In this document: in pieces, positions 12,273 to 31,005 of the stretch
Position numbering within the stretch: the stretch's first letter is position 1
Layout: the number at the start of each line of letters is the position of its first letter
NCBI GenBank assembly: GCA_018821985.1
Contig: JAHJKP010000049.1
Span: 1-64,000 of the forward strand
Length of the DNA: 64,000 nt
Reading direction: 5' to 3'
Source of the DNA: Pseudomonadota bacterium
GTDB lineage: Bacteria; Desulfobacterota; Desulfobulbia; Desulfobulbales; Desulfocapsaceae
Notes under the pieces: generated by a model
Seen by the model: the letters and a program-made list of their open reading frames with translations, nothing else
Database searches by the model: none
Told to the model about the DNA's origin: nothing
Program-made: the position numbers and the translations under genes

Positions 12273-12317
12273 TGCCCTGGTACAGAAACTTTCGTTCTCT
12301 CATTAAGGGTGCTCAAG

Positions 12318-14694: not shown

Positions 14695-17478
14695 TCATTG
14701 TATTTCAATACGGTTAATATCTATCCCAAGTTTTCTTGAGTCCTTACTGGAGGGAACAAATGTTGTCGATTCTATTGCAAGACTCTTCAAACGGGTAAGG
14801 GTATCAGGGATAGAAAAAATATATACATTCTGTTCTGTTTTCTTAAACGGCAGGAGAATCTTATTATTAGCAGTAAGCGTCAGCTTCAGACTGGACATCT
14901 CTTTATCGGGACGCCATCCATGAGTATAAAGAACTAACTCTTGGTCCTTACCACGCTGAATCGTGTAGCCAAGGTCATAAAACCTTGCATCTCCGTTTGT
15001 CCAGGAATCACGGTAAACCCCCCTTGTCTTTGTAAAATCCGCTCTCCAGACCGGCAATCCTACATTATTAAACCAGGGAGCAAGCAGGCTCATATCTTTT
15101 GTTTGAAGTGGAAAATGACCATTCCACAGGAGGGCTGAAGGATTTATCAGATCAAGCCGAATTTCTGCTTCGGCAAGTGCAAAAAGAGAATAGTTATGCA
15201 CATCAAATCTTTTAGAGATCACAGATTGCCCATATTGTTTAATCAACACTTTCTCACATTCATCAGCAACAGCTGTATCGCATATTAAAGCCTGTCCTCG
15301 TGACGGTCGTACAAAATAGCGTAACGGATTATTTTTATATTTCGTGCTATGCCTTGCAAGAGCAATCTCCTTCTTACTCCCCCCTTTGAACACCTCACGC
15401 AATCTGGCACTCAACCAGCGATCAGCCAGAACGAAATCAAGATTCTGGTCAACAATTAATTGTGTTAACTGGGCAATGTCATCTGGAGCATCCTGTCTCA
15501 AGGAGCCATCCGTCTGAAAGATAAATAACTCGGTTATTGGAGAAGAACTCTTTTCCAGAAAAAGAACCCTCACATACCGGGCGTAAACGGGAGAAAACAA
15601 GGATTCCACTTTTCCCCATGGTCCACCAATATATATGCCAGGACCTGCGTGAAAGCCATTACCTGTTTCAGGCAAGGAACTATAAATTTTATCATAACGG
15701 ATACCATCCCGTGAGACATGGACCTCATAGCGTCCAGGCCCCTTCCACATATTGGCGGCAGGATCCTGGTAGATGAACATCCAGAGTGCACACAATTTTC
15801 TTACTTTCCCTGTATCAAATGACAGGGTCATGTCGGCAATTGTATTAAGATCGGTGCCGATGTCCTGACTACGGTCCTGAAGCAACTCACCAGCCATATC
15901 ATTTTTTGCATTGTCAGAAGAAACAAGCTGTATCTCTTCACTTGGAATCGCCTGCATAGCAACCTGCGGCCTTGAATGCAGATTACTGAAAAGAAAATAT
16001 TCATGAATCTGTTCGACTGTAAAGCCTACTCCCAACTCCTTCAGTGTATTTTTTAAAGAAATTTTAGAATTTACGGTAGAAAGATACCCCCTGTTCAAAT
16101 CCGTTTCAGAAAACTGGGCATTAGGTTGATAGCGTTCTGTATCTGCATGGGTAAAGGCAATCATATTTTGTGAATACATGCTGAATTTCTGCCCCTTGAG
16201 CCCAAAATAAGAATCGCCATAAGTAACCACGCTTTTCAAATTATGTGCCCTGGCAGCACTCACTATATCACGCGCTAATTGCTGTTCAGATCGTGCATTA
16301 TCAGTGTTTCCTGCGATAAAGAGAACCGTTCCGACTATCTGATAGCCTAACCAAATACAAAACAGTACTGAAGCGGTTATCTTCAATACACGTTTTGTCT
16401 GGCCAGCTATAGCCAATGACCAAAGCATACAGAGAAGCATGCACAAGAAATTGATGGCATACCGGGGGGCTTTGATGGTTGCCATATGATGCTGGACGTA
16501 CATCATCAGGAAAAGCAGACAATACGAAGATGGAATAAGATAGTTTATCTTCTGTAACTGCCGATTTTTTTTACCTGTTAGAGAATAAAGAGCTAAAAGG
16601 AGAGCCATGCAAAGAAGACTGAGACTGCCGTACACTACCAGATATCTGACAATCGGGATTTCAATGGTCTGGATGAAATTCCAGACCAGCAGATCGAAGA
16701 TATTAGTGCCAAACAAATTGGAAAGTGCCTTAATAACACCAGTCCAGGATATCTGAACACTCTCTGATACGCCTCCCAGAAAAGAGCCGGTTTCAAAATA
16801 AAATGGTACAAATCCAGTAAGGCCGACAATCGCAGCTCCCATCAGTGACAAGACGATGTCAACGCGAAATCGTTCTCTGAGTGCAAATATCCCCAATATA
16901 CAGGCAGCAATAGCAATATAAGGAAAGCTAAGAGGATGAACCCAGATACCTACTCCCATGAGGATACCAATACAGGCAGCATGCAACGCTAGAGATGTTT
17001 TTTGAACATTCTCCTGCAGCACTCTCAAGGAAAGCCAGAGCATGGCGGTTCCAACACACAATATTACCGAGTAGCCCCCATAGGTTGCAATGGAATACCA
17101 AAACACATAATATCCGGGAAAGGCGGCACACGCAGCAGCAATAAGTCCAGCTGTTCTGTTATGAATACGTGAGAAAAGAAGATAGGAAAAGACGATCCAG
17201 GCAAGGGTAAAAGTTATAGGCGACAAACTCACTACGAATTCAGAAAAACCGAAGAGACAGATAAACATTGCCGCCAGATACGCTTCTAAGGCACCGAAAT
17301 ACGGCTGACCATAAAAAAACAGCGGCCTGTCACCATGGACAATATTGACACTCATCAAGCCAACTGTACCAGTGTCAAAGGTAGAGGTATAACTAAACCA
17401 CGACCCGGCAAGTAGCAATAGAGCGGCTAACACAATAATCGATCCCAAAAAAAATCGGTCCAATAAATTGGCTTTCAT
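14695..17478 (-). CDS. GT-C-like membrane protein with discoidin-like periplasmic domain
   Basis: 927-residue inner-membrane protein. About ten to twelve membrane helices fill residues 10-400; the first periplasmic loop carries a TFDTGTVGLMSVNI segment in the position of the GT-C acidic motif. Around 560-680 there is a discoidin (F5/8 type C)-like domain: DMTLSFDTGKVRKL, RYEVHVSRDG and ARYVRVLFLE are its typical strands. The last 80 residues form a beta module with the ending DSRKLGIDINRIEI, shared with the protein at 47886-49982. It probably binds and transfers sugar on a surface glycan, but neither activity is proven by sequence. Start ATG 17478 lacks a clear ribosome site. Confidence 0.7.
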   Translation of the reverse strand: MKANLLDRFFLGSIIVLAALLLLAGSWFSYTSTFDTGTVGLMSVNIVHGDRPLFFYGQPYFGALEAYLAAMFICLFGFSEFVVSLSPITFTLAWIVFSYLLFSRIHNRTAGLIAAACAAFPGYYVFWYSIATYGGYSVILCVGTAMLWLSLRVLQENVQKTSLALHAACIGILMGVGIWVHPLSFPYIAIAACILGIFALRERFRVDIVLSLMGAAIVGLTGFVPFYFETGSFLGGVSESVQISWTGVIKALSNLFGTNIFDLLVWNFIQTIEIPIVRYLVVYGSLSLLCMALLLALYSLTGKKNRQLQKINYLIPSSYCLLFLMMYVQHHMATIKAPRYAINFLCMLLCMLWSLAIAGQTKRVLKITASVLFCIWLGYQIVGTVLFIAGNTDNARSEQQLARDIVSAARAHNLKSVVTYGDSYFGLKGQKFSMYSQNMIAFTHADTERYQPNAQFSETDLNRGYLSTVNSKISLKNTLKELGVGFTVEQIHEYFLFSNLHSRPQVAMQAIPSEEIQLVSSDNAKNDMAGELLQDRSQDIGTDLNTIADMTLSFDTGKVRKLCALWMFIYQDPAANMWKGPGRYEVHVSRDGIRYDKIYSSLPETGNGFHAGPGIYIGGPWGKVESLFSPVYARYVRVLFLEKSSSPITELFIFQTDGSLRQDAPDDIAQLTQLIVDQNLDFVLADRWLSARLREVFKGGSKKEIALARHSTKYKNNPLRYFVRPSRGQALICDTAVADECEKVLIKQYGQSVISKRFDVHNYSLFALAEAEIRLDLINPSALLWNGHFPLQTKDMSLLAPWFNNVGLPVWRADFTKTRGVYRDSWTNGDARFYDLGYTIQRGKDQELVLYTHGWRPDKEMSSLKLTLTANNKILLPFKKTEQNVYIFSIPDTLTRLKSLAIESTTFVPSSKDSRKLGIDINRIEIQ

Positions 17479-17549
17479 AAGATCAGATTATTGTTTTATA
17501 GGATACGTAGACAGAACCTTTAAGTTTAAACAGTTCCAGCTTAAGATGG

Positions 17550-18257
17550 CTATGGAGTGCGGAGAAGAAGCATCAACCATGGCAAAGTACGGGCGGTGGG
17601 TTTGGGTATGCTTGTATACCAGGTAGTAGCGATGGCATTGAATCCTTTCGCATTAGGATGAAGATGATCCCCATAACATCCCTCGGGATGTGTGTACCAA
17701 TACCAATAAGGTTTAAGAGCATTATACTGATCGACAAGGATAACACCTTTTGCAGATGCTAAACTACGAATAAGCTCATTTGTTTGCTCAATTTCTTTCC
17801 AGGTATGATCGTCATCCGGGGTTATTGTAGCCAAAACAGGCTCTATTCCTTTGGCTCGAACCTTGTCTATCATAACCCCAAGATTAAAACTAATAACACT
17901 TGGATCATTATGAAAGAATAAATCGTTCGTACCTTCGAGTAACAAAACATAATCGACTTTCGGGTTACACGAACTATTTAAAACTGTATCTAATCTGTTC
18001 ACCCCATCGGGGGTCGTCTCTCCACCTTTACCGAAATTTTTTACCGTTGAATCTCGGCCCTCAGCTTTATATAACGCCTCAAGATAAACAGGATAATTAT
18101 AATCTCCATCATCCCAGCCATCACATCCATTGAGTGACACCCCACACCCCTCTGTAAGACTATCTCCAAAAGCAATGAGAGTTTGACAAAACCCAACACC
18201 AGAGTACAGAAGCACGTTCAAACAAATGGATAGAAAACAAATAATTAATGTTCTCAT
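17550..18257 (-). CDS. secreted SGNH/GDSL hydrolase
   Basis: 235-residue esterase-like protein with a signal peptide (hydrophobic residues 3-24, probably cut after GFCQ). Block I reads IAFGDSLTEG with the nucleophilic serine. GGETT is near the glycine position of block II. LLEGTNDLFF gives the block III asparagine. GDHLHPNAKG holds the catalytic Asp-His pair. These are all the SGNH catalytic residues, so it should be an active hydrolase, most plausibly removing O-acyl groups from periplasmic polysaccharide. It lies between the GT-C gene and a secreted propeller-like gene and would be co-transcribed with both. The exact substrate cannot be told. Confidence 0.88.
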   Translation of the reverse strand: MRTLIICFLSICLNVLLYSGVGFCQTLIAFGDSLTEGCGVSLNGCDGWDDGDYNYPVYLEALYKAEGRDSTVKNFGKGGETTPDGVNRLDTVLNSSCNPKVDYVLLLEGTNDLFFHNDPSVISFNLGVMIDKVRAKGIEPVLATITPDDDHTWKEIEQTNELIRSLASAKGVILVDQYNALKPYWYWYTHPEGCYGDHLHPNAKGFNAIATTWYTSIPKPTARTLPWLMLLLRTP

Positions 18258-18292
18258 ATTAATTATAATATATCAGGGGACATAGCCAATAT

Positions 18293-19198
18293 CTATAAAA
18301 GAGACAAAGGGATGGATCCAGCCCCATCATTTCCTTTAATAAAAAAAGTCGCTTTACGAGGATCTTCAACAAAATCAGGAATAGACAATGTTTTCTTATT
18401 TTCCTGCATCAATTTCTTCCGAATATTTTTTCCAGACTCATTTTGGACTGTTTGCCACTGCTTTCCAGTCCATATCTGCGACACAACCATATACTTTCCG
18501 TCAAGATACGTTTGCCAGGACAAATTAACATGTCCTGACTCATCAAGGGTCAGTGCAGGCTGAATATCAGGCACTTTATTTTCTTTATGCGCTTTCAAAG
18601 GCAAATCCCACTCCTGTCCATTCCATCTGGACCAAAAAATATCTGGATACATATCATCAATAGCTGTCCAGGCAATCCAAGGCGTATCGTCACGATCGAC
18701 TACAACGGTAACAGCTTTATTGTTGTCCATCCCTGTATTGATCTGCCTTGGTGGTGTCCATTTGGAAGCACTGTAAACAGAAAATTGCATAAAACTTCCA
18801 CTGTTGTCCTGACGTGACCAGACAACCCATACCTTTCCATCAGTTCCGGAACTGCTTGCAGGCTGAAAAACCAAATCAGTACTATGACTGAGTTGAACAG
18901 GAGTGGTCCATTTGTTCTTTTTAAAACTGCTGTAATATATCTGTTCCCCTTGACCATAATTCTTCGCGGACCAAACAAGTTCTGTATCCTGCTCCTGCTT
19001 GATGTTCTCTTCTATTTGAGCATGCAGCACCTGACTCAACAATAGGTTGAGCATGAGACACGTGAAGATGATGGAACAAAAACGCAACGAACCATGTCGG
19101 CTGTATATTTTTGGAAAACTACTTAGGAGAATATTAACCCCAGAGTATCTCATAACATACCTAAAACCACAAAAGACTTTCCTAAATTTTTTCTGCAT
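18293..19198 (-). CDS. secreted propeller-like protein of unknown function
   Basis: 301 residues with a long basic N-terminus and a hydrophobic export signal near 40-60, ending LSQVLHAQ. The mature part contains at least four strand repeats of the form VWVVWSRQDN, PWIAWTAIDD and VNLSWQTYLDG, each about 50 residues apart. This resembles the blades of sialidase/BNR-type beta propellers, although the Asp-box itself (SxDxGxTW) is absent and no sialidase catalytic arginine triad is seen. Carbohydrate binding on the outer face is plausible. A shorter start at residue 16 (MRYSGVN, 19153) is possible. It precedes the SGNH esterase gene by 35 bases. Confidence 0.6.
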   Translation of the reverse strand: MQKKFRKVFCGFRYVMRYSGVNILLSSFPKIYSRHGSLRFCSIIFTCLMLNLLLSQVLHAQIEENIKQEQDTELVWSAKNYGQGEQIYYSSFKKNKWTTPVQLSHSTDLVFQPASSSGTDGKVWVVWSRQDNSGSFMQFSVYSASKWTPPRQINTGMDNNKAVTVVVDRDDTPWIAWTAIDDMYPDIFWSRWNGQEWDLPLKAHKENKVPDIQPALTLDESGHVNLSWQTYLDGKYMVVSQIWTGKQWQTVQNESGKNIRKKLMQENKKTLSIPDFVEDPRKATFFIKGNDGAGSIPLSLL

Positions 19199-19234
19199 AT
19201 TTTTTTCAAAACCTTTAATCGTCGATCATCACAT

Positions 19235-20179
19235 TCAGTCTCTTCCTACTATTTTACGAATATAATAGGTGGGCTTGTCCTGCGACTCATGATACGTTCT
19301 TGCCAACATTTCAGCAACCAAGCCAATAGTCACAAACTGTACCCCGACAAAAATCAACAACACAGCAAGAAGCAACAAGGGCCGATCAGAGAGAGGAACT
19401 CCATAGAGCTGACGCTGAGCTGTTAAGACAATCGCCAGCAGCCCGCCAAGAGAACCTGAAACAAACCCGAATGTACCAAACACATGGATAGGCCTGGTCG
19501 CATAATTCAATAAAAATTTAACCGTAATCAAATCAAGAATCACACGTAATGTTCGAGAGATTCCATATTTAGATGTACCAAATCGCCTTGACCGATGATT
19601 GACCTTCACCTCTGCAATGGTAACACCCATTGCACTGGCAATTGCAGGAATAAAGCGATGCATTTCACCATATAATTTAATGGTTTTAATGACATCGCGC
19701 CTGAAAGCCTTTAAGGTACAGCCATAATCGTGCAAATGTACGCCAGTTGCAAAGGAGATAATCCGGTTGGCAATTTTTGAAGGAAGTTTTCGACTGAAAA
19801 ACGGATCCTGCCGATTGTATCTCCAGCCAGTTACCATATCAGCACCTTCATTGATTTTGGCAAGCAGCATGGGAATATCTACCGGATCATTTTGTAGATC
19901 AGCATCCATGGCAATAATAATATCACCATTTGCCATATCAAATCCTGCGCTCATTGCTGCAGTCTGTCCAAAATTTTTCCGTAGTGCAATCAAACAAATA
20001 CGAGAATCACCCTGTTGTAGCTTTTCCAGGATCTCCAGACTGCAGTCGCTACTGCCATCATCTACAAAAAGTAGTTCATACTCTAATCCGGTTTTTTGCA
20101 GTGTTTGCGTAAGCTCATCATAGAGAATAGGTATATTTTTCTCTTCATTCAACAGGGGAATAACAACAGAAACGTCCAA
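19235..20179 (-). CDS. GtrB/ArnC-like polyprenol-phosphate glycosyltransferase
   Basis: 314-residue GT2 enzyme with a GT-A domain (VSVVIPLLNEEKN, VDDGSSD near 39-45, DAD at 92-94) followed by two C-terminal membrane helices around 230-255 and 265-292. This is the architecture of GtrB, ArnC and related enzymes that load a sugar on polyprenyl phosphate at the cytoplasmic face. It starts with TTG, preceded by AGGAAGG. The GT-C proteins encoded on both sides of this region are natural users of its product. It lies 36 bases upstream of the propeller-like gene. Confidence 0.9.
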   Translation of the reverse strand: MDVSVVIPLLNEEKNIPILYDELTQTLQKTGLEYELLFVDDGSSDCSLEILEKLQQGDSRICLIALRKNFGQTAAMSAGFDMANGDIIIAMDADLQNDPVDIPMLLAKINEGADMVTGWRYNRQDPFFSRKLPSKIANRIISFATGVHLHDYGCTLKAFRRDVIKTIKLYGEMHRFIPAIASAMGVTIAEVKVNHRSRRFGTSKYGISRTLRVILDLITVKFLLNYATRPIHVFGTFGFVSGSLGGLLAIVLTAQRQLYGVPLSDRPLLLLAVLLIFVGVQFVTIGLVAEMLARTYHESQDKPTYYIRKIVGRD

Positions 20180-20306
20180 TTTTCCTTCCTCTAACTGTTT
20201 ATCTTTAAATTTAATAATGAAAACACGTATAGGATGATAAGTTTCAGGTTATTACCATGAAGAACTCAATGGTTGCAACATCTAGATTCAGATGCAAACT
20301 GCTCTT

Positions 20307-21311
20307 TCATTCTGTTAGCTGATAAAGATAGAAATATGTCGGAGATACACCAAATTTTTGCACAACAGGATCTTCATACTTTGGGGATTTGCAGTACAAT
20401 TTATAACCATATTTTTCAACCAAAACGGAGAATTCAACTCCATTATTGAGGGCAAGCTTTTCCCCTCCATGGCCTGCGGCATTGGGAACAATAAAGAGAT
20501 TCTTTACCTTATTTGCAGAAAGAAGCGCAAGCCACCAATCAATAGCCTCAAGACTGCATTCTGAAAAACTGTGTATATTCACCGCAAGATCAATCTGCTG
20601 CTCCTGCAAACGCTCAGCAATATTATCAAGAGGAATAACTGACACCTTGTCTTCTATATGACGAAACTTAATGTGATACTCTGACAAAAAAGTGGACTCT
20701 GGCACTGCATCAGTACATAGGTATGTCATCAAATTGGAAAAGGAGCTTGCAGCGCGATACGCTAAACGACCATAACCAGCGCCGATATCAAGAATCTTCA
20801 AGTTAGGAATTTGAGAAAGGTCAAGATGCTTTTCAAGAAAATTCAGCTCGATTATTGAATCCAACAGATCCCTGCTAATGACCTGGGAATCTACAGTATA
20901 AGTATATACACCAAAGAGCCCATCTTCATTGTTTTTCTGTAAAAGTCCAAGCCCATCAATGGCTTTCACATAATAGGCGGTTAGACAATAGTTAATCTCA
21001 TCACAATTTGGATCTTTTGTCTGCCAGACATAGCAGTTATCACCTCGAAAAGACAGCAAGTCATAGGATTGGACATATTCATCTGTCCAAACAATAGGAA
21101 TGCATGCCTTGAGCTGAAACTGCGAATAGCGCTGGCGCAGTTCCTCTAAACGCGGATTGTCTATAGTCAGATACTCTGCGCCTTCTTCAGGCAAACACAG
21201 TTCGTATTTTTTGTCCGTCTCACCTGTTTGCCAGTCATAAAGTATTGACTCCCTCACAATTCGAAGACCAAATATTGACAACAGGCTATTTACTATTCGG
21301 GTAAAAAACAT
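20307..21311 (-). CDS. putative sugar O-methyltransferase
   Basis: SAM-dependent methyltransferase of 334 residues. The SAM-binding motif I is LKILDIGAGYGRLAYR in the middle of the chain. The N-terminal half and the C-terminal GGEKLALNNG/YFYLYQ segments match the putative sugar O-methyltransferase group found in surface-glycan clusters. I use ATG 21311. The longer open frame from GTG 21395 would read through the hairpin and T-run at 21356-21385, which is the terminator of the preceding unit, so the extension is very unlikely. It would methylate a hydroxyl of the nascent glycan in the cytoplasm. Confidence 0.78.
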   Translation of the reverse strand: MFFTRIVNSLLSIFGLRIVRESILYDWQTGETDKKYELCLPEEGAEYLTIDNPRLEELRQRYSQFQLKACIPIVWTDEYVQSYDLLSFRGDNCYVWQTKDPNCDEINYCLTAYYVKAIDGLGLLQKNNEDGLFGVYTYTVDSQVISRDLLDSIIELNFLEKHLDLSQIPNLKILDIGAGYGRLAYRAASSFSNLMTYLCTDAVPESTFLSEYHIKFRHIEDKVSVIPLDNIAERLQEQQIDLAVNIHSFSECSLEAIDWWLALLSANKVKNLFIVPNAAGHGGEKLALNNGVEFSVLVEKYGYKLYCKSPKYEDPVVQKFGVSPTYFYLYQLTE

Positions 21312-21355
21312 AATATATTTCTGCTGAATTATTTCCTTACCATCAAAAAAACAAA

Positions 21356-21385
21356 GCAACCTTGTCTTAACAAAGACAAGGTTGC
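21356..21385 (-). terminator. strong intrinsic terminator of the two-gene secreted unit
   Basis: Perfect 13-base arms (21356-21368 and 21373-21385) with a four-base loop. On the minus strand the stem is followed by a T-rich run, TTTGTTTTTTT. It lies 45 bases past the stop at 21430 and inside the spurious 5' extension of the methyltransferase frame. Confidence 0.88.
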
Positions 21386-21429
21386 TCGAAAACACATTCC
21401 ATTTCTAACAGATACTTAACGATTAACAA

Positions 21430-22020
21430 TCAATTCATCACTGCCGAGCCCCAACAACCCGTAGTTCCTGAAGGATATTCTTCAAAAAGTAGATTACTTC
21501 TGTTGCGACCATTACACTCACCCGCTTTTCGATCGCATAAAGAGTGCACCATACTGCCCATCCAGCAATTAGGCATTCCTTCCTCCAGGCCCTTACCTTT
21601 TGAAGTCGGAATAAGATAATCCCAGGATTGAAGCTTAAAAGTTTTTCCACCATCTGTTGACCAGACAGCACAGATCATTGAATTAATACCATTAGAGAAT
21701 CGCGGATAGGGAGTTGGATAAGGATAAGTAAACCACTCCATCATATGCGGGTAAAAATCAACTTTGTTCATATAAACTTCCTGCAATACTGGATTTACAA
21801 TATCAGCAGCAGTTTTAGGAGCGACAGGAGGTTGAGGCCATGCCCCTCCCCATTGTGTTATATCTACACTTCCGGCAGGAAATTCAGTAACATGAACAAC
21901 AGTTAACGAAGTGGAAGCCGTCAAAGTTCCAGCCATAGAAGCCTCAACGACACCAGATGTCAACAATAACACAGCACTTAATACTGTAAGATATTTCTTT
22001 ATTTTCTTTATAGTTATCAA
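21430..22020 (-). CDS. small secreted protein of unknown function
   Basis: 196 residues with a clean signal peptide: lysine-rich N-region (ITIKKIKKY), hydrophobic core LTVLSAVLLLTSGVV and a likely cut after EASMA. I choose TTG 22020 because GGAG lies 7 bases upstream; the earlier ATG at 22062 would place that ribosome site inside the gene. The mature protein is rich in W, P and Y, with YPYPTPYPRF near the middle, and has five cysteines, all in the C-terminal half (CAVWS, NCWMG, LCDRKAGEC, TGCWGS), which could form disulfides. A STDGGKTF segment resembles an Asp-box. I recognise no family. It follows the Ig-like gene by 95 bases and ends before a strong terminator. Confidence 0.72.
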   Translation of the reverse strand: MITIKKIKKYLTVLSAVLLLTSGVVEASMAGTLTASTSLTVVHVTEFPAGSVDITQWGGAWPQPPVAPKTAADIVNPVLQEVYMNKVDFYPHMMEWFTYPYPTPYPRFSNGINSMICAVWSTDGGKTFKLQSWDYLIPTSKGKGLEEGMPNCWMGSMVHSLCDRKAGECNGRNRSNLLFEEYPSGTTGCWGSAVMN

Positions 22021-22115
22021 AACAAAACTCCTTTTTACTGACTGACATTTTACGTTTGCCACGTATCGTTCCTCAAAGAGTCATGAAAGCCCTATGCCCT
22101 TTAAAGCTCTACAGG

Positions 22116-22511
22116 TTACTTAACTATAGGTTTTAATAACAACATGTTAACACCTGGATTAAGATTACCACCGCTTTTTGGATACGAACAGCTTATCTTA
22201 ACCTGACCAGATGTCTTACCAGCAGCCACGGTTGCCAGACCACTTTCGTCAATAGTAACAATGCCCTCATCGCTGCTGTCCCAACTAACCAGTTCGGTAA
22301 TATTTGTTGTAAGTCCTGCTGCATCGACTCCAAATGCGACAAACTGCTGCTTCATTACTGTTGTAAAGACCCCAACGTGTTCAGGATACAATTTAACACT
22401 CACAAACTCACCGGCTAAACAACTTCCCGATATCGAGAGGAACATAACAAGCAGGACAAAAACAGCAGCTATATTCTTTTTGTACCATTGGGCAATCTGC
22501 TTCTTTTTCAA
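22116..22511 (-). CDS. secreted single Ig-like (BIG2) domain protein
   Basis: 131 residues. The signal peptide has a lysine-rich start, hydrophobic core AAVFVLLVMFLSISG and a likely cut after CLA. The rest is one bacterial Ig-like group 2 domain: VSWDSSDEGIVTIDESGLATV followed by KTSGQVKISCSYP. Such domains usually occur in tandem in adhesins; a free single domain is unusual. It starts with TTG 5 bases after GGAGGAG, a very strong ribosome site. A near-consensus promoter lies about 190 bases upstream. It is probably exported and works with the next gene product, perhaps as a matrix or glycan-binding subunit; this is inference. Confidence 0.78.
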   Translation of the reverse strand: MKKKQIAQWYKKNIAAVFVLLVMFLSISGSCLAGEFVSVKLYPEHVGVFTTVMKQQFVAFGVDAAGLTTNITELVSWDSSDEGIVTIDESGLATVAAGKTSGQVKISCSYPKSGGNLNPGVNMLLLKPIVK

Positions 22512-22700
22512 AATAACTCCTCCTATTCACAATCACATATATAAATGAACTCATCACTGGCAGCTTTACCTGCAATATTGGTTACCAATAGACAGGGCAA
22601 CCCGAGCTACACAGCTACAAGCAAGCATGAGCATCACACTGAAGACGAGAGCAATCACATAAATACAGAAGATCTACGGAGCCACACGACTTTATTCAAA

Positions 22701-22729
22701 ATAATACTCTACTAACATGTTTTTGTCAA
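22701..22729 (-). promoter_or_regulatory. near-consensus sigma-70 promoter
   Basis: On the minus strand TTGACA (22729-22724), a 17-base spacer and TATTAT (22706-22701): a perfect -35 box and a one-mismatch -10 box. It would start RNA near 22694 and give a leader of about 180 bases to the TTG at 22511. The leader holds a small inverted repeat (TATTGG/CCAATA, 22576-22590) but no riboswitch I can recognise. It is the best promoter seen in the window. Confidence 0.75.
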
Positions 22730-22739
22730 ACACATTCAG

Positions 22740-22767
22740 TAAGATGACTCTTAACGTCGTCATCTTA
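22740..22767. other. hairpin next to the promoter
   Basis: Nine-base arms (TAAGATGAC/GTCATCTTA) around a ten-base loop, directly upstream of the promoter's -35 box and 61 bases past the stop of the flippase gene. It lacks a good T-run on the minus strand, so it may be a weak terminator for the long block before it or an operator. The remainder of the 316-base gap 22512-22827 holds only the promoter and leader. Confidence 0.4.
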
Positions 22768-22827
22768 GAAAAAATTGAAAACATATAACGAGGTATCATC
22801 TCTATGCCGCTTCCCACGCCTCTCTTT

Positions 22828-24087
22828 CTACTTTTTCACATAAAGTACATTTTTTTGCAGGGAGACATAATGCAGAATTGTGAGACTTATAAAACTTAAT
22901 GTTGAGGCTATAGCAGAACCCATCACGCCGAATTTAGGGATCAACAGATAATTACATACTAGGTTCAGCAAGGCAGAGATCCAGCAATTGCGGTTATCGA
23001 ACCTAATATTCCCAGTGGCCCCCAGTATAACCCCTGCCACATAGCCCACCGGTTTCACCAATGACGAGGCAAGAAACAAGTAGATTAGTAAAATAGAATC
23101 GTCATATTTCCCTTTGTAGATCAAATGAATTACGGTAGGGGCCGCAACTGCAATGATTGACACAATGGGAATAATCCCGATATACATATCTTTCACAGAC
23201 TGACGAAAAACCTTCCTGATCCTGCTCGTATCATTATCACCTGACAAAACAGAAACTTGAGGTAAACAAACACGGAGCACTGAATCAAAAACGACATTCA
23301 CCGCTTCATTGACAAACAAGGCCATACCATACACGCCGACCTCTCTAGGGGAGCAGAAATACCCTAACATCAGGACATCTACCTTAAGAATAACTAGAGA
23401 ACTTATTCCACTCAGAACGGTGAATTTTGAGTAATGAACAATCTTCCATAATAATTCTTTATCTATCCGGGGAGTAATCTTAATAAACCGGTGAAATACA
23501 AGCACTCCAGCAAGTGCTGCCCCCCCTGTGGCTAAAGAAAAAACAGTGACCAGCTTTTCCGTGGAGAAACTCCCTCCAACACAATAAGCACCAGCAAGAA
23601 ATACAATAAAGACAAGAGAACTCAGCAACTCATAAAAAAACAGAAGCCTCATTTTTATCTGAGAGATAAGAACTTGCCCCACATACATATAAGCGGTCAG
23701 GGTAAAAAGCATAAAGGGCAAAAAGAGCAACAACCTCTTTCTCTCAACCCCGGAGTACTCGACAATGAAGTCAGAACAGACAAAAATCACAAAAGAGACA
23801 ATCAAAACATAGAGAATTTTCAAGAGAATCACCTGAAAATTGACCAGTTCGGCCTTATTTTCTCCATCTGTTGCAAATTTGATAAATGGCAGGTTGAGAG
23901 AATTCTCAGAGAAAAGGCGAGAAAAAAAATAAATCGACAAAAAGATATTAAAGATACCAAACTCATACTTTGACAGTAATAAGCTGGCTATAAAGACAAG
24001 GAGGAATCTACTGAAGGCCCGACATACTGTTGCACCCAATGAAAAAAAATTATTCTCATTTTTCTGCAATATCGACGAAATAGACAT
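22828..24087 (-). CDS. polysaccharide flippase (Wzx/MATE-like)
   Basis: About 420 residues with twelve to fourteen hydrophobic helices and few charged loops, the pattern of MOP-superfamily flippases that move lipid-linked repeat units across the inner membrane. FGIFNIFLSIYFFSRLF near the N-terminus and GVYGMALFVNEAVN and GVMGSAIASTLSF in the C-terminal half are typical family positions. I start at ATG 24087 (MSISSIL); a GTG nine bases earlier is possible. It is the last gene of the long minus-strand block. Which of the two initiating transferases supplies its substrate cannot be told. Confidence 0.88.
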   Translation of the reverse strand: MSISSILQKNENNFFSLGATVCRAFSRFLLVFIASLLLSKYEFGIFNIFLSIYFFSRLFSENSLNLPFIKFATDGENKAELVNFQVILLKILYVLIVSFVIFVCSDFIVEYSGVERKRLLLFLPFMLFTLTAYMYVGQVLISQIKMRLLFFYELLSSLVFIVFLAGAYCVGGSFSTEKLVTVFSLATGGAALAGVLVFHRFIKITPRIDKELLWKIVHYSKFTVLSGISSLVILKVDVLMLGYFCSPREVGVYGMALFVNEAVNVVFDSVLRVCLPQVSVLSGDNDTSRIRKVFRQSVKDMYIGIIPIVSIIAVAAPTVIHLIYKGKYDDSILLIYLFLASSLVKPVGYVAGVILGATGNIRFDNRNCWISALLNLVCNYLLIPKFGVMGSAIASTLSFISLTILHYVSLQKNVLYVKK

Positions 24088-24122
24088 ATACACCACTTCA
24101 CAGGGCAGAGAGGACGCAAAAC

Positions 24123-25019
24123 TTATTTTGTAGCACTTAGAAATCCTTTCACCAATCCCAGAATGGCCTTCACATTCCCTCGCCTTAGCTCCCTGACTAT
24201 CGTTTTCACACTGAGAAATGGCAGGAAAAGATTAAAACAGAACCATTGGAACGCTGTGGAATGACGCTTGAAAAACATTCTCATATTTTTGCCTTTCATC
24301 CGGGTATAATCAGCTGTATAGCCGGAAAAACCTGTTTTTGAACCTAAATGGTAAACAACAGCATCCGGAACAAACAAAAACGGGGCCATGCCTGGATTGG
24401 CACGTAAAACCATATCTATATCTTCATAGCCATAAGGATCGAAGGAAACGTCAAATCGGCCAGCTCTTTCAAGGGCCTTACGGTGCATTAAAACAGTGGT
24501 TGTTGGCACACAGTTCGGGAAGCGTTCATTCTTGTATTGTCCTGCATCGACTTCTCCATGACCTCGTGTCTGCGTTGATCCTGTGTAAAAATTAAGCTTT
24601 GGGCCTCCGGCACTATCTATAATGTTATCAGTTCCCATTTGATATAAAAGAGGCGAAGCAATCTCAACAGAAGGATCTTCACAAGATTCCAGACCATCTA
24701 CCAGCTTGCCCAAAAAATCAGGCATGACAACAATATCATTGTCCATGAAGAGGATATATGTAAAATCGAAATGTTTCAGGGCATATTCTATCGCTGTATT
24801 GCGTCCACCAGCGGCACCAATATTTTCCTCATTACGCAACACAAGAACATGAGGAAATTTGTCGATCACTTCATCCTGAACCCCATCTTCAGAGCCATTA
24901 TCCACAAGAATAATTTGTTTATGTTCATACTGACATTTGAGAAGGCTGTTTAAACAATCAAAGGTAAGTTTTTTCTGATTACAGGTAAGGATAACAACGG
25001 CAACAAGAGGAAAGGTCAT
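24123..25019 (-). CDS. family 2 glycosyltransferase (WbbL-like)
   Basis: 298-residue GT-A enzyme resembling rhamnosyltransferases such as WbbL: VAVVILTCNQKKLT, ILVDNGSEDG near 37-46, and ENIGAAGGRNTAI, with DND at 93-95 as the metal site and GYEDIDMVLR as the catalytic acidic segment. The ATG follows immediately after the stop codon of the upstream GT4 gene (TAAATG), so translation is coupled. It probably adds rhamnose or another deoxyhexose, in keeping with the GDP-deoxyhexose genes in the same block; that is inference. Confidence 0.9.
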   Translation of the reverse strand: MTFPLVAVVILTCNQKKLTFDCLNSLLKCQYEHKQIILVDNGSEDGVQDEVIDKFPHVLVLRNEENIGAAGGRNTAIEYALKHFDFTYILFMDNDIVVMPDFLGKLVDGLESCEDPSVEIASPLLYQMGTDNIIDSAGGPKLNFYTGSTQTRGHGEVDAGQYKNERFPNCVPTTTVLMHRKALERAGRFDVSFDPYGYEDIDMVLRANPGMAPFLFVPDAVVYHLGSKTGFSGYTADYTRMKGKNMRMFFKRHSTAFQWFCFNLFLPFLSVKTIVRELRRGNVKAILGLVKGFLSATK

Positions 25020-26150
25020 TTAGTTCTCATTCACCAGATTTTTAAATATTTCCAGAGTCTCAGCTGCACATTTTTCCCAACTGAAGATCTTTGAACGCTC
25101 AAAGCCTTTCTCACACATCTCCTGCTGCAGATCTTCATCGTCCAACACCTTTTTTATGGCATCTGCAATGGCTTGACTATCAAGAGGATCAACGGCAAGC
25201 GATACTCCGTGGGTAAGTTCCGCAAGGCCTGTTCCATTGGAGGTTATAATGGGGCAGCCGCAGGCCATGGCCTCCGTGGTCGGTATGGGAAACGCCTCAA
25301 TGATGGTTGGATAGAGATAAAGTTTTGCCAGGCTGTAAAATGCCGGGAGATCAGCCTGCGGAACAAGACCAGGAAAAATTAGGTCATCTTGGATACCAAG
25401 GGATTTCAGGTCATGGTCTTCTCCGTAGTGATCACAATCACGCCCGACCACGACAAATTTTTCCTTCCCGCCCATCTTTTTATACAGGGAATAGGCCTCA
25501 GCCATTCCCTTGAAATTCTTGCGGGTATTTCTGGTGCCAGGGTCGTAACGAATGACCGTGAGAATAAAATCGTCAGGCAGATGATATTTTGCGCGTACTG
25601 CTTCCAACACCTGTTGGTCGGAAATAGGTTTAAAGATCTTATTTGGGCCGAAATATATTGTCTTAATCTTCTTTTTGCACCAGGGAAAGGCTTTCACAAA
25701 ACCATCAGTTGAATAGTCTGAGACAGAGCTTATATAGTCAGCCTTTCGAAAATAGAGGGGCATAACCCTTTTGATATAGAAATTATCTATGGTGGTGTAC
25801 ACCTCATCATAAGGTGGCACAAACCAGTCAGCACCGTGGACCACCATCACTGTCTTACAACGCGTAAAGAGAGGTACAGTAAATTTCGGATTAAAAATCA
25901 GATCGATCTTTTCGCGCCGTGCCGCCCTAGGTATTGTGACCTGATCCCATATGGCCTTGTTTTTACCAGGCAGTAATAGTTCGCGGCAATTGGCAAACTT
26001 ACTGTAACGTCCAAGGTGCTTTTCACTTTTATAAAAGAGGACATACTCATTATCATGGTCCAGCTTTAACAACTCCTCCACGATATTTCTGGCATATACC
26101 CCAATTCCTCCTGCCTCGTCAGCTGATCGCATCATAATAGCTATGCGCAT
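25020..26150 (-). CDS. family 4 glycosyltransferase
   Basis: 376-residue GT-B enzyme. The acceptor side has AGGIGVYARNIVEELL near the N-terminus. The donor side has LTVIRYDPGTRNTRKNFKG and PTIIEAFPIPTTEAMACG, in which the two glutamates occupy the E-x7-E positions with a slightly divergent spacer. ITSNGTGLAEL follows. Its start overlaps the acyltransferase gene by 10 bases, and its stop touches the next GT2 gene, so the three are translated as a set. Donor unknown. Confidence 0.9.
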   Translation of the reverse strand: MRIAIMMRSADEAGGIGVYARNIVEELLKLDHDNEYVLFYKSEKHLGRYSKFANCRELLLPGKNKAIWDQVTIPRAARREKIDLIFNPKFTVPLFTRCKTVMVVHGADWFVPPYDEVYTTIDNFYIKRVMPLYFRKADYISSVSDYSTDGFVKAFPWCKKKIKTIYFGPNKIFKPISDQQVLEAVRAKYHLPDDFILTVIRYDPGTRNTRKNFKGMAEAYSLYKKMGGKEKFVVVGRDCDHYGEDHDLKSLGIQDDLIFPGLVPQADLPAFYSLAKLYLYPTIIEAFPIPTTEAMACGCPIITSNGTGLAELTHGVSLAVDPLDSQAIADAIKKVLDDEDLQQEMCEKGFERSKIFSWEKCAAETLEIFKNLVNEN

Positions 26151-26905
26151 TGTTCTACTCCTTCTCCCCTTGTGCCGGTGACCACCGCCGGAATTCCTTT
26201 TGCTATTGAATTTGGGGGAATAGATCTAGTCAAAACTGCTGCAGCTGCCACAATGGATCCAGCGCCCACCTGCACCCCACCCAGAACCGTAACATGGGCA
26301 CCAAGCCAGACATTATTCTCAATTTTTACCCCACCGTCATTCTTAATTCCTTGCAGACGAATCGGAATATCAAGACGATCGATATTATAATTCCCCCCGC
26401 CAATCACAAAACTCATCTGACCAATAATCACATCTGCACCGATGAAAACCGGGCAGTGGTTGGTTGATTGAATGATCGTTCCGGCATTGATCCCGGTTGA
26501 GTCACCAATGGTAATGGAACCGTTTTTGCAAGAGAGTATCACATTATTGGAAAGGATGACATCATTGCCCAGCACAATAACCCTGTCTGTATCATCGTGC
26601 CTTCCGTCGAGGATACAGCCCTCACTGATCACTACGGAATCACCTATATGTATCCGTCTTGGATGGCGAAGCACAATCCCTTTTGCAAAGGCAGTCTTCC
26701 TGCCGCAGGAGCCAAAAAGCCTTGGCCAGAAAATCTGGCGCAGAAGCATACCAAGCGCACCCGGCACAACACCAATCCAGGCACACCACTCATAATAGAA
26801 CAAAAAAATCAGTGAACGGTTACCAATAATAACGTCCTGATACTTAGTAAGCGCCGATCCCTTGCCGGTAATGGCCTTATGCGTTTTTTTCAGGTCATCA
26901 TTCAT
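26141..26905 (-). CDS. hexapeptide-repeat acyltransferase
   Basis: 254-residue left-handed beta-helix acyltransferase. After a 70-residue non-repeat N-terminus with a hydrophobic patch (FLFYYEWCAWIGVV), the chain shows many hexapeptide turns such as IHIGDSVVISEG, ITIGDSTGINAG, VFIGADVIIGQ and VKIENNVWLGAHV. The single histidine near STNHCPV fits the catalytic base of acetyltransferases of this class. It would acetylate a sugar hydroxyl or amine in the cytoplasm. Its end overlaps the following GT4 gene, suggesting coupled action on the same residue. Confidence 0.88.
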   Translation of the reverse strand: MNDDLKKTHKAITGKGSALTKYQDVIIGNRSLIFLFYYEWCAWIGVVPGALGMLLRQIFWPRLFGSCGRKTAFAKGIVLRHPRRIHIGDSVVISEGCILDGRHDDTDRVIVLGNDVILSNNVILSCKNGSITIGDSTGINAGTIIQSTNHCPVFIGADVIIGQMSFVIGGGNYNIDRLDIPIRLQGIKNDGGVKIENNVWLGAHVTVLGGVQVGAGSIVAAAAVLTRSIPPNSIAKGIPAVVTGTRGEGVEQCA

Positions 26906-26938
26906 GATTTGTGATTTTACAGCCCCTTGTCATTATCC

Positions 26939-27922
26939 CTACAGATATCCTTCTGCTCTATACCAGTCGCCTGTTCTCTTCAGTCCCTCATCAAGACCTA
27001 TCCGGGGTTGATAGCCGAGATCTTTCTTGGCCTTACTGATATCAAAGGCCCTATTCTGTCGATACCAGTCAACACGCCTGGGAAAAATCGGCGGTGGAAT
27101 CTTAAACGGTTTACAAATCTTTTCAAAAAAATGGCCGGCAATGATTAACGGCCAGATGGGATAATGGGGAATCTTCACCTCTACCCCCAAGGCCTTTGCC
27201 GTGCGACGCACTAAATCCTCAATTTCCACATACTCTTCATCGGCAATCAGGTATGCCTCTCCATTTCCTTTTTCCGGATCCATGGCCAGTACATGCGCAT
27301 CAATCAGGCTGTCAATATACAGAGGATGATAATAGGTCTTGCCACTGCCGAACATGGGAAACATCCCATTATTCACCCGTTTGAAAATCATAAAAAAACG
27401 TTCAGGATCTCCAGGACCGTAGATGGCGGCGGGACGAAGAATAGTTGCCTTCAAACCTTTTTTTACATAGTCAAGTACGATTGGCTCGGCCATATATTTG
27501 GTCTGCTGGTAATAATCGGCTGCATTGATAGGTGCTGTCTCATTGGCTGGAGGATTTTCCACATTGCCATGCACACCGCAGGTGCTGCAGTAGATAAATT
27601 TTTTCACTTTATTCTTAAACGCAGACTCCAGGACAATCCGCGTACCACCCACATTGACTTCGTCGTAGTACGAATTGGGAACATCCATCTCCCGAAAAGC
27701 CGCGGCCAGATGCTGGACGACATCAATTCCCTGCATGCACTCTTCAACTACCTTGGCATCGGTTACCGTACCAATGACAACTTTTGCCCCCCACTGACGG
27801 AGCTCATCCGTCTTCAGCCCTTCCTGATAATCAAGAGCAACCACCTCATGTCCATCATCCAAAAGTCTCCGAACTAGGGCCTTTCCAGTAAAACCGGTTC
27901 CCCCTGTCACCAGAACTTTCAT
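26939..27922 (-). CDS. NAD-dependent sugar epimerase/dehydratase family protein
   Basis: 327-residue extended SDR protein. The cofactor loop GGTGFTG is near residue 7, and the catalytic YxxxK reads YQQTK around residue 146, with CSTCGVHG before it as the serine/threonine segment. The overall pattern (RPAAIYGPGDPERF, then VDWYRQNRAFDISKAKKDLGYQP) resembles 3-beta-HSD-like and sugar-nucleotide 4-epimerase-like members. The exact product cannot be told; an NDP-hexose epimerase is most likely from context between AsnB and an acyltransferase. Confidence 0.82.
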   Translation of the reverse strand: MKVLVTGGTGFTGKALVRRLLDDGHEVVALDYQEGLKTDELRQWGAKVVIGTVTDAKVVEECMQGIDVVQHLAAAFREMDVPNSYYDEVNVGGTRIVLESAFKNKVKKFIYCSTCGVHGNVENPPANETAPINAADYYQQTKYMAEPIVLDYVKKGLKATILRPAAIYGPGDPERFFMIFKRVNNGMFPMFGSGKTYYHPLYIDSLIDAHVLAMDPEKGNGEAYLIADEEYVEIEDLVRRTAKALGVEVKIPHYPIWPLIIAGHFFEKICKPFKIPPPIFPRRVDWYRQNRAFDISKAKKDLGYQPRIGLDEGLKRTGDWYRAEGYL

Positions 27923-27949
27923 ATTTTCTACTCCTCTCTATCTTTCTTA

Positions 27950-29812
27950 TTAAAAAAAACGATTATGCCAGATTGCCACATTAATCAAAGCCCAGAGGAC
28001 ATGGTTATGATTATGGACCATGTCGCAATGTTCTTTAATCAGATGATTCACGTAGTCGAGATGCATATTTTCTCGAATAATTGCGGAATCATTGAGCAAT
28101 GCAATCATATAAGATTTCATCTCCCCGCGCAGGAGATGCTTGACCGGTAAGCTGTAGCCCTGTTTCCCACGATGCACAATATTATCGGGCAGCAACCCCT
28201 GCAGAGCTGAACGAAAAATATGCTTTGTTTCAAAGCCCTTCAGCTTCCAGTCACCGGGTAAGGATGCCAAAAATTCAACCAGCACATGGTCAAGTAAGGG
28301 CACCCTGACCTCAAGGGAACTGGCCATGCTCATCTTGTCTACCTTCATCAGCACACTGTCGGTCATCATATACCGCATATCCAGATATATTTCTCTGTTA
28401 ATTCTGTCATGCGCATTGCAACGTTCTGAATATTCACGAACGATTCTAAATGGATCAAAAGCAGCATGGCTCTTGAAATGCTCATTAAAGAGACGGTTGT
28501 TCTGCTCTTCACTGGAAAAATATTGCCAGCGGAGATGATGCCCCTCAGGGGGAAGATTTGCGCCCTCGACAAAACGCTTTAGCATGTTGACAGCACCTTT
28601 TTTCTGCGGCTGATCAGGAAGAGACGCAATCACTCTGCCAATGATCTGCTTACGCACGGGAGCTGGAATAATCCTGAAAAAAAGATTAAGTTTACTGGCC
28701 TTGAATCGATCGTAGCCCGCAAAGCTCTCATCCGCCCCCTCCCCGCTCAGACAAACCGTTACATGCTCTCTTGCCTGTTTACAGAGGAGATACAAGGGAA
28801 CAGTGGACAGATCAGTCATCGGTTCATCAAGATGCCAGAGAGCCTTTTCCACATAGTCAGGTTTAATATCATCAAGCATCAATACCTGATGCTCTGTATC
28901 AAAATACCGGGCTACCTGAGCGGCATAATCCAATTCACTGAAACTTTTATCATGATAGCCGATGGTAAAGGTCTTGAGAGGGCCGGATATATGGCGGCGC
29001 ATCATGGCAACGATTGCACTGGAATCAAGACCTCCGGAGAGAAAAACACCAAGGGGGACATCGCTGACAAGATGGCTTTTTACCGCAAAATCCAACAGAC
29101 CACGCAATTTTTCCACACTTTCATCGTAGGAAAGCGCTGGATCTTGTGACGCAAAATCGAGATCCCAATAGCGTTTGACCTGCACCTGGCCCTGGCGACA
29201 GAGTAGATAGTGCCCGGCAGGAAGTTTATAGATATCTTGGAACATGGTTGCGGGCGCCGGGACAAACTCAAACCCAATGTAATCATATAAGGCCTGATGA
29301 CACAGTTTCCTCTCTATGGTTTGGTCTTCAAGAATCGCTTTTATTTCCGAGGCAAAGACCAACTTATCGTCTTTGTGGTAATAGTAGAGTGGCTTTATTC
29401 CTATGCGATCTCTGGCCAGAAAAAGCGTTTTGTCTTTGAGATCATAGAGGGCAAAAGCAAACATGCCACGGAGCTTGTCAAGAACCCCCATTCCATACTC
29501 TTCATAGGCATGGATAATAACCTCGGAATCCGCATGGCTGCTAAAGGTATGTCCTTTCTGGATGAGGGTATCTCGTAATTCCTGGAAGTTATATATTTCT
29601 CCATTGAAGACAAGGCAGAGGCTGCCATCCTCGTTAAACATGGGTTGCCTGCCATTTTCACTGAGATCGATAATACTCAGGCGCCTGTGCCCCAGGGAGA
29701 CATCGTCACAACAATAAAGTCCGTCCTGATCTGGTCCGCGATGAGCCATCTGGCTGTTCATCCGCCGAATCAACGCCTCGTCGTTCCAATTAAAACCGCA
29801 AATTCCACACAT
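27950..29812 (-). CDS. asnB: glutamine-dependent asparagine synthase-like amidotransferase
   Basis: 620 residues, the usual length of the glycan-cluster AsnB group. Cys2 after the start methionine (MCGICGF) is the class II glutaminase nucleophile, with RHRLS-like GHRRLSIIDLS and FNGEIYN further on. The synthetase domain has the pyrophosphate-binding SGGLDS at 259-264. In surface-glycan loci such enzymes are thought to amidate a uronic acid or other carboxylate, by analogy with their chemistry; free asparagine synthesis is the alternative. It is followed by the epimerase-like gene 27 bases on. Confidence 0.9.
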   Translation of the reverse strand: MCGICGFNWNDEALIRRMNSQMAHRGPDQDGLYCCDDVSLGHRRLSIIDLSENGRQPMFNEDGSLCLVFNGEIYNFQELRDTLIQKGHTFSSHADSEVIIHAYEEYGMGVLDKLRGMFAFALYDLKDKTLFLARDRIGIKPLYYYHKDDKLVFASEIKAILEDQTIERKLCHQALYDYIGFEFVPAPATMFQDIYKLPAGHYLLCRQGQVQVKRYWDLDFASQDPALSYDESVEKLRGLLDFAVKSHLVSDVPLGVFLSGGLDSSAIVAMMRRHISGPLKTFTIGYHDKSFSELDYAAQVARYFDTEHQVLMLDDIKPDYVEKALWHLDEPMTDLSTVPLYLLCKQAREHVTVCLSGEGADESFAGYDRFKASKLNLFFRIIPAPVRKQIIGRVIASLPDQPQKKGAVNMLKRFVEGANLPPEGHHLRWQYFSSEEQNNRLFNEHFKSHAAFDPFRIVREYSERCNAHDRINREIYLDMRYMMTDSVLMKVDKMSMASSLEVRVPLLDHVLVEFLASLPGDWKLKGFETKHIFRSALQGLLPDNIVHRGKQGYSLPVKHLLRGEMKSYMIALLNDSAIIRENMHLDYVNHLIKEHCDMVHNHNHVLWALINVAIWHNRFF

Positions 29813-29853
29813 TTAAGAGATTCCTCTGGTATCACACTTAGACAAAATATTAA

Positions 29854-31005
29854 TCAACCTTGCAACTTTTCGTAAAAGGTCGCCAATTTCCTCTGGAAGG
29901 CCGGCAGTGAATACTCCTCCTGAACCCGTCGCCTTGCCTGATATCCAATTTTTTCCCGCAAGACCTTATTTTCTGCAAGGGCTACAATCCCGTCAGCCAT
30001 ATTTGCAGGTGTGGGACGAACGAGACAGGCGATTTCCTCATCCAAAACCTGGGTATGGGTCGGCAGGTTTGTGGCTACAACAGGTCGCCCGGAATCAAGA
30101 TACGAATAAATCTTCATTGGAGTATTGTTCCCCTGGATTCTCGGAGAGACAAGGATATCTGCCTGGCCAAGGTAATAGCCAAGCATATTCACCGGACGCT
30201 GGCCACAAAAAAAGACGTTTGTTGCAATGCCAAGTTTTATTGATCGTTGTTTATACAATTGGATATCTTTTTTATTACCGCCAATCAAAACAAGCCGCAA
30301 ATCCTTTTTCCTGAGCACTGCCTCTTTAAATCCATCAAGCAACAAGTCAATACCCTGATATTTCTCAAAATTCCCCACATACATTAACAGGATGCCTTGG
30401 ATCCCCAGCTCTTCCCGCAAGTCTTCCTCTCCCTCATTTCCACTCTCCAACAGGGTAATATCTTCAATCCTGGCAGTGAGCTTGTCGGGTGCATATTTCT
30501 TGACCATTTCTTCAAGGGAGCGGCAAACAGCAAGAACACCTTTACTGTTAACGATCGCCGCCTTTTCCAGCCACTGCATTGTCCTGCGCACCAGTCCCAA
30601 AGATGGAAATTTATCTATCAGTTGTAGTGACATACATGAGTCCATGTCATAAACATAGGGGATTTTGAAAATCTTTTTTATCACCATTGCCATAAAGACC
30701 GACTCTTCCACAGCATGAACTATCTGAAATTCATGTTTCCGGACCAGTTGAACACATTTAAGAAACAAAAAGAAATCACAAATGAGTTTTTTCACCGATA
30801 ATCCTGGTTTTATATTGGATATTCCGGGAAGAGAGATGTGCCTGTGAATGGTGACATGGGGAATAACAATCTCCTCTCCTTCAGCAAAGACAAGCAGGTG
30901 AACATCATGCCCCTGCTCGCCCAGGGTCTGAACCAGGACTTTTACCGCGATGGGGGTACCTCTGTCCTGGTAAAAGGGCTGGGGAGCTAAAAGAAGAATA
31001 TTCAA
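29854..31005 (-). CDS. family 4 glycosyltransferase
   Basis: GT-B enzyme. I start at TTG 31005, giving MNILLLAPQPFYQDRGTPIA, the usual N-terminus of this group. The open frame back to 31071 runs into the end of the methyltransferase gene and has no family match. The donor domain reads LLMYVGNFEKYQGIDLLLDG, SPRIQGNNTPMKIYSYLDSG and VATNLPTHTQVL, the pattern of GT4 members where a lysine and tyrosine replace part of E-x7-E. It is 19 bases from the methyltransferase stop. Donor unknown. Confidence 0.87.
   Translation of the reverse strand: MNILLLAPQPFYQDRGTPIAVKVLVQTLGEQGHDVHLLVFAEGEEIVIPHVTIHRHISLPGISNIKPGLSVKKLICDFFLFLKCVQLVRKHEFQIVHAVEESVFMAMVIKKIFKIPYVYDMDSCMSLQLIDKFPSLGLVRRTMQWLEKAAIVNSKGVLAVCRSLEEMVKKYAPDKLTARIEDITLLESGNEGEEDLREELGIQGILLMYVGNFEKYQGIDLLLDGFKEAVLRKKDLRLVLIGGNKKDIQLYKQRSIKLGIATNVFFCGQRPVNMLGYYLGQADILVSPRIQGNNTPMKIYSYLDSGRPVVATNLPTHTQVLDEEIACLVRPTPANMADGIVALAENKVLREKIGYQARRRVQEEYSLPAFQRKLATFYEKLQG

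Follow-up and report, generated by a model that had tools for sequence, protein, structure and literature searches.

We propose that the two small genes described here encode partners of one secreted assembly – an Ig-like protein (gene A) and a protein of no recognised family (gene B, WYP) – which would work on, or in, the glycan of the surrounding gene cluster by binding or organising it, a reading to which we assign about an even chance of being correct. The two-gene unit is embedded in a cluster of surface-sugar genes from a Desulfocapsa-like sulfur bacterium, within the 64,000-nucleotide stretch of DNA that we analysed as a whole (hereafter, the window). In the proposed assembly WYP would be the head, rich in aromatic residues and bearing cysteines, through which sugar is probably contacted, and the Ig-like protein would be its partner or stalk, lengthened by InlB repeats in some genomes and fused to WYP in one; with a promoter of its own and a terminator that probably leaks, the pair would be supplied in larger amounts than the downstream enzymes, which would suit a structural (matrix) product. 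Joint action of Ig and WYP is supported by their fusion (L050), their co-occurrence and a common promoter. A position on the glycan, beyond the cell envelope, is favoured by the export signals, the adhesin-type InlB repeats, the lectin-like propeller neighbour and the cluster itself. The shared slot in the cluster, the swapped order in L030, the SGNH hydrolase nearby, the codon use of WYP and its invariant Trp and Cys residues also speak for the assembly. Against it stand a poor structural model of WYP, solo copies next to non-glycan genes, an Ig gene on its own in L077 and the patchiness of the family. On balance, we infer a physical Ig–WYP complex, an extracellular location and glycan binding by the pair.

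The unit lies on the minus strand, as do its neighbours from 14695 to 24096, between a Wzx-type flippase gene (22828–24096), its upstream neighbour, and a putative sugar O-methyltransferase gene (20307–21311; TIGR04371, above the family cut-off). A presumed 5′ leader (22512–22694, transcription presumably starting near 22694) precedes gene A (22116–22511), which encodes a 131-aa exported-type protein; gene B (21430–22020) encodes a 196-aa exported-type orphan. The sequence-only reading had described two TTG-started genes with strong ribosome sites, and both genes indeed combine a TTG start with such a site: AGGAGG at 22524–22519 for gene A and AAGGAG at 22033–22028 for gene B. Its signal peptides likewise hold, as both N-termini are Sec-like, judged by eye. 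Downstream follow a GT2 glycosyltransferase gene (19235–20179) that is kept in the cluster, a gene for an exported, predicted β-propeller protein (18293–19198), an exported SGNH/GDSL hydrolase gene (17550–18257) and a PMT_2-type membrane glycosyltransferase gene (14695–17478; 927 aa). Elsewhere in the window (42061–44117 and 47886–49982) we noted two genes resembling an ABC-type polysaccharide exporter, an assignment made from sequence only, and one for a protein of the Wzy/O-antigen ligase type; besides the Wzx flippase, more than one export route may thus be encoded.

A gene B search of genome contigs, confined to close relatives, yielded 10 loci; the MAGs concerned carry the label Desulfocapsa, Desulfobulbaceae or a broader one. 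Genomes seen in both collections were counted once, on the basis of identical matches (for example L017=L007, L018=L008, L022=L011, L024=L010 and L023=L051). Counting the window, there are nine loci at which gene A immediately precedes gene B: the window, L017, L018, L022, L023, L024, L025, L026 and L031. As far as the sequence reaches, these nine share one syntenic order: asnB, epimerase, hexapeptide acyltransferase, GT4, GT2, Wzx, Ig, WYP, methyltransferase, GT2, propeller, SGNH hydrolase and the 927-aa PMT_2-type GT-C, except that L031 lacks the GT-C and has no matching methyltransferase. L024 (5703–7259) and L031 (10970–12727) each have an extra ORF of more than 500 aa towards the flippase. 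In genome G017 (L030) the adjacent order is swapped to WYP–Ig, followed by the propeller and SGNH genes, and in G478 (L050, 9628–10539) WYP and Ig are fused into one 303-aa protein, again in such a glycan cluster. Conserved pairing near glycan clusters of other genomes, the absence of which was to count against the sequence-only reading, is therefore what we found: nine loci, a swap and a fusion. Judged by gene order, the pair is no stray insertion, since its position within a syntenic glycan cluster is unchanged across the nine loci. Both genes are under purifying selection, with dN/dS among close orthologs of 0.12–0.13 for WYP and 0.15–0.24 for Ig. A second G478 cluster (L077) carries Ig without an adjacent WYP. 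Genome G487 has two tandem Ig genes at a contig end (L095, 1–1765), the second of which continues into at least four further repeats of another kind and is cut by the contig end, and its cluster from the methyltransferase onward lies at the end of a different contig (L076); WYP may therefore lie in the assembly gap.

Gene A was described as a free single Ig-like domain, and this description stands. As a single sequence it scores below the cut-off of Pfam Big_2 (PF02368; E=0.011, 16.1 bits versus 22.8), and its ortholog profile aligns over one domain with LigA/LigB Ig domains (3e-14 to 3e-7) and with teneurin-like proteins (1e-32); against solved Big_2-type domains the family profile matches LigA 8gyr at 3e-14, 2mog/2mqg at 2.9e-8 and 9ifo at 1.1e-32. 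The likeness to LigA and LigB, the Big_2 surface adhesins of Leptospira, stops at that one domain: the Lig proteins are long tandem arrays, whereas gene A encodes one free domain paired with WYP. The Ig partners in L025, L026 and L031 run on into two or three divergent InlB B-repeats (Flg_new_2; PF18998, 4e-12 to 4e-31), as in InlB-repeat proteins, while the window's own Ig protein has none. Repeats of the InlB type are typical of surface adhesins. A lipoprotein reading of gene A was rejected: its Cys is not part of a proper lipobox and is missing from L025. The sequence-only reading also raised a pilus-like component; the Ig-like fold and export are all that speak for pilus- or fimbria-like subunits, no usher, chaperone, pilin or sortase family is found among the cluster genes scanned and neither protein has a C-terminal sorting signal, so that we consider this reading very improbable indeed. 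The C-termini (...CWGSAVMN and ...LLLKPIVK) also lack the PEP motif, membrane helix and basic tail of PEP-CTERM/exosortase cargo.

WYP, on the other hand, is an undescribed protein family. In agreement with the sequence-only reading, it has no above-threshold match in Pfam, NCBIfam, PHROG or PDB; as there is none in plasmids or viral contigs either, WYP shows no sign of being a phage or plasmid gene. The Asp-box (BNR, sialidase-like) score reaches 13.3 bits versus the 27 required, in one stretch only, and profile comparison linked WYP neither to the propeller neighbour nor to Ig. The invariant residues are W96, W120, W133, W153, C162 and C169. Two further cysteines, C152 and C189, are jointly absent in L013 and L050, where both proteins end early, and this joint loss suggests that the disulfides may be 152–189 and 162–169. 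The AlphaFold model of WYP, built from 11 sequences, reached a pLDDT of 33 and was discarded.

The WYP family is rare and patchy, being found in 10 of the 93 family genomes (3 of 18 genera), in 11 of 258 genomes in the order-level search, where the eleventh (G530) represents another family, and in only two genomes, both of the window's own genus, of a 395-genome phylum sample. The Ig ortholog is also found in 10 of the 93 family genomes, nine of which have WYP as well (Fisher p 1e-10, kinship ignored); the relatives being few and closely related, these counts are not independent. WYP also exists in solo copies: G000:C13:10830-11411 (L005), L019 and L020, as well as L015/L033, L016/L034 and L052. 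In the tree the solo copies split into two groups, one from the own genus and one from the g6 group (supports 99/97 and 98/97). Each is closer to paired copies from the same lineage (97/96 and 90/93), and solo WYP thus probably arose twice. Those of the own genus adjoin Trk-like genes (L005); in L033 and L052 solo WYP adjoins the type II secretion genes GspB and GspF, which may hint at an export route, and in L049 (G478) a SASA-type esterase gene and one for a 691-aa membrane protein. With most solo copies located beside non-glycan genes, WYP is not always dependent on the cluster or on an adjacent Ig. This raises the question of whether the pair has a role unrelated to glycan, for example as a surface sensor or enzyme, and is merely located in the cluster. 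We think this improbable: although the solo paralogues beside unrelated genes speak for such a role, the slot is kept at ortholog identities down to about 50–60%, through swap and fusion, and an enzyme is made less likely by the lack of a conserved His in WYP and by its few invariant polar residues (D134, K143, S160 and N170 among them at most).

The regulatory elements of the pair are conserved with it. The promoter element TTTGACAAA-N14-GTA (22705–22730, minus strand) comprises the −35 and the start of the −10, and the full promoter, TTGACA (22729–22724) and TATTAT (22706–22701) at a fixed 17-base spacing, tops the 36 promoter-like sites in 15000–30000, in line with the claim of a best promoter with a perfect −35. 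Given a shuffle mean of 31 for those 36 sites, and of 13.4 for the 11 terminator-like hairpins found, a consensus match alone proves little, and conservation is the real test. The element precedes the pair at all nine loci with Ig upstream of WYP, and also Ig in L077 and L095 and solo WYP in L049, twelve loci overall; it was not seen 5′ of the G017 pair, the WYP–Ig fusion or the remaining solo copies. A genome-wide search found a single occurrence in the own genome and thus no sign of a regulon under a shared element. A riboswitch in the leader was rejected, since the scanned window gave no Rfam match there and leader length varies between genera. Just 5′ of the promoter we noted an 8-bp inverted repeat, AAGATGAC...GTCATCTT (22765–22741, minus strand), without a T-tract and partly retained in L017.

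Behind the pair stands a hairpin terminator (21387–21354, minus strand) with 15 pairs, a 4-nt loop and a T-tract, which is the longest of the 11 and is kept at related loci: the strict scan is passed at eight paired loci, the hairpin is imperfect in L025, and in L031 the stem is altered yet still paired. It was not found at the solo WYP copies. Its core is unique in the genome, and a dispersed genomic repeat was accordingly rejected. Two exported-type proteins under a promoter and hairpin of their own, as first proposed, are thus borne out, with both elements conserved. The fusion, the shared occurrence among genomes, the adhesin-type repeats of some Ig partners and the two other exported proteins of the cluster strengthen the case beyond what the sequence-only reading had. 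'Insulated' expression, in contrast, is too strong a term: the hairpin ends 43 nt before the next start codon in the window, and about 30–47 nt where measured, too close for a separate promoter beyond it. The hairpin probably lowers read-through instead of insulating the unit, and such a leaky terminator would likely cause the pair to be made in excess of the downstream genes. The claim of strong expression fares less clearly: the codon use of WYP is the most ribosome-like in the window (0.655, as compared to 0.622 for Ig and a mean of 0.68 for the ribosomal-protein gene block) and gives it indirect support, but the measure tracks low GC3 here and is confounded by it. The products of genes A and B may be abundant.

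What the assembly might act on is suggested by its neighbours. The model of the exported protein at 18293–19198 is of moderate confidence (pLDDT 68 overall, mostly 70–90 in the core), and Foldseek returned ulvan lyase (PL25), sialidases, PLL, the Kordia fucose lectin and AAL with TM-scores of 0.3–0.5; there is no sequence match in PDB. The protein thus resembles lectins, sialidases and polysaccharide lyases, i.e. it is predicted to be a carbohydrate-handling β-propeller, and this likeness to PLL/AAL-type lectins and sialidase-like propellers belongs to the neighbour, not to the pair. Together with the SGNH hydrolase gene it forms a propeller–SGNH pair (window 17550–19198; L071–L075, L078 and L079) that is widespread in the family without WYP or Ig. 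In some genomes this pair adjoins genes for MBOAT O-acyltransferases or for asnB/hexapeptide acyltransferase, and it looks like a glycan O-acyl handling module. The propeller and SGNH genes constantly accompany WYP and Ig, the gene for the 927-aa GT-C usually does so too, and the G478 solo WYP lies beside the SASA-type esterase and large membrane protein. Instead of being matrix proteins, WYP and Ig could therefore be periplasmic accessories that assist in building or modifying the glycan, for instance by forming a scaffold that helps the propeller, SGNH hydrolase or PMT_2-type glycosyltransferase act on the growing chain. We judge this rather unlikely: the propeller–SGNH pair is so common without WYP/Ig that it was rejected as their obligate partner, the dedicated promoter and the terminator behind the pair suggest a dosage above accessory need, and some Ig partners carry InlB-type repeats.

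The glycosyltransferases could alternatively act on the pair itself. The mature N-terminus of WYP is Thr/Ser-rich with a conserved LTASTSLTVV.VT motif, and PMT_2 (14695–17478) and PMT/PMT_2 (12309–14681) domains are encoded in the cluster, so WYP, and perhaps Ig, may be an acceptor that the cluster GT2 and PMT_2-type transferases glycosylate into a surface glycoprotein. However, the motif is kept in solo copies outside the cluster and is equally readable as a β-strand, no close GT-C homologue accompanies the pair in G017 and G012, and GT-C enzymes of the PMT_2 class also act on lipids and polysaccharides; we regard an acceptor role as quite improbable.

For a secreted WYP–Ig assembly the closest working analogy is offered by the Vibrio cholerae rbmA-F/Bap1 system of secreted biofilm matrix proteins encoded within an exopolysaccharide locus (PMC4741415, PMC5605196), where RbmA, a tandem FnIII protein, binds the polysaccharide directly (PMC5605196). 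Both have an exported-type protein encoded in a polysaccharide locus (here with a signal peptide recognised by eye), an Ig-like-fold partner, a predicted β-propeller protein in the same cluster and a presumed role as polysaccharide organiser. Polysaccharide binding, shown for RbmA, is conjectural for the pair, and the likeness would be one of arrangement and presumed role, not of homology: neither profile returns an RbmA entry from PDB, that of gene A matching Big_2-type Ig domains and that of WYP nothing. A literature search on the gene pair or on Desulfocapsa surface proteins found nothing relevant.

Taken further, and more tentatively, WYP could be the founder of a new family, perhaps with a new fold, of glycan-binding extracellular proteins. 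With Ig it would form a head-and-stalk matrix unit that is specific to polysaccharides on the surface of some Desulfobulbales-like bacteria and that occurs in some cases as a fusion and in others on a stalk of InlB repeats; WYP would have been duplicated twice to serve at other sites of the cell. We consider this extended version doubtful. The assembly that we propose would add to the few known protein-plus-polysaccharide matrix modules a protein family complete with partner, promoter and cluster, in environmental sulfur-cycle bacteria whose surfaces have hardly been studied.
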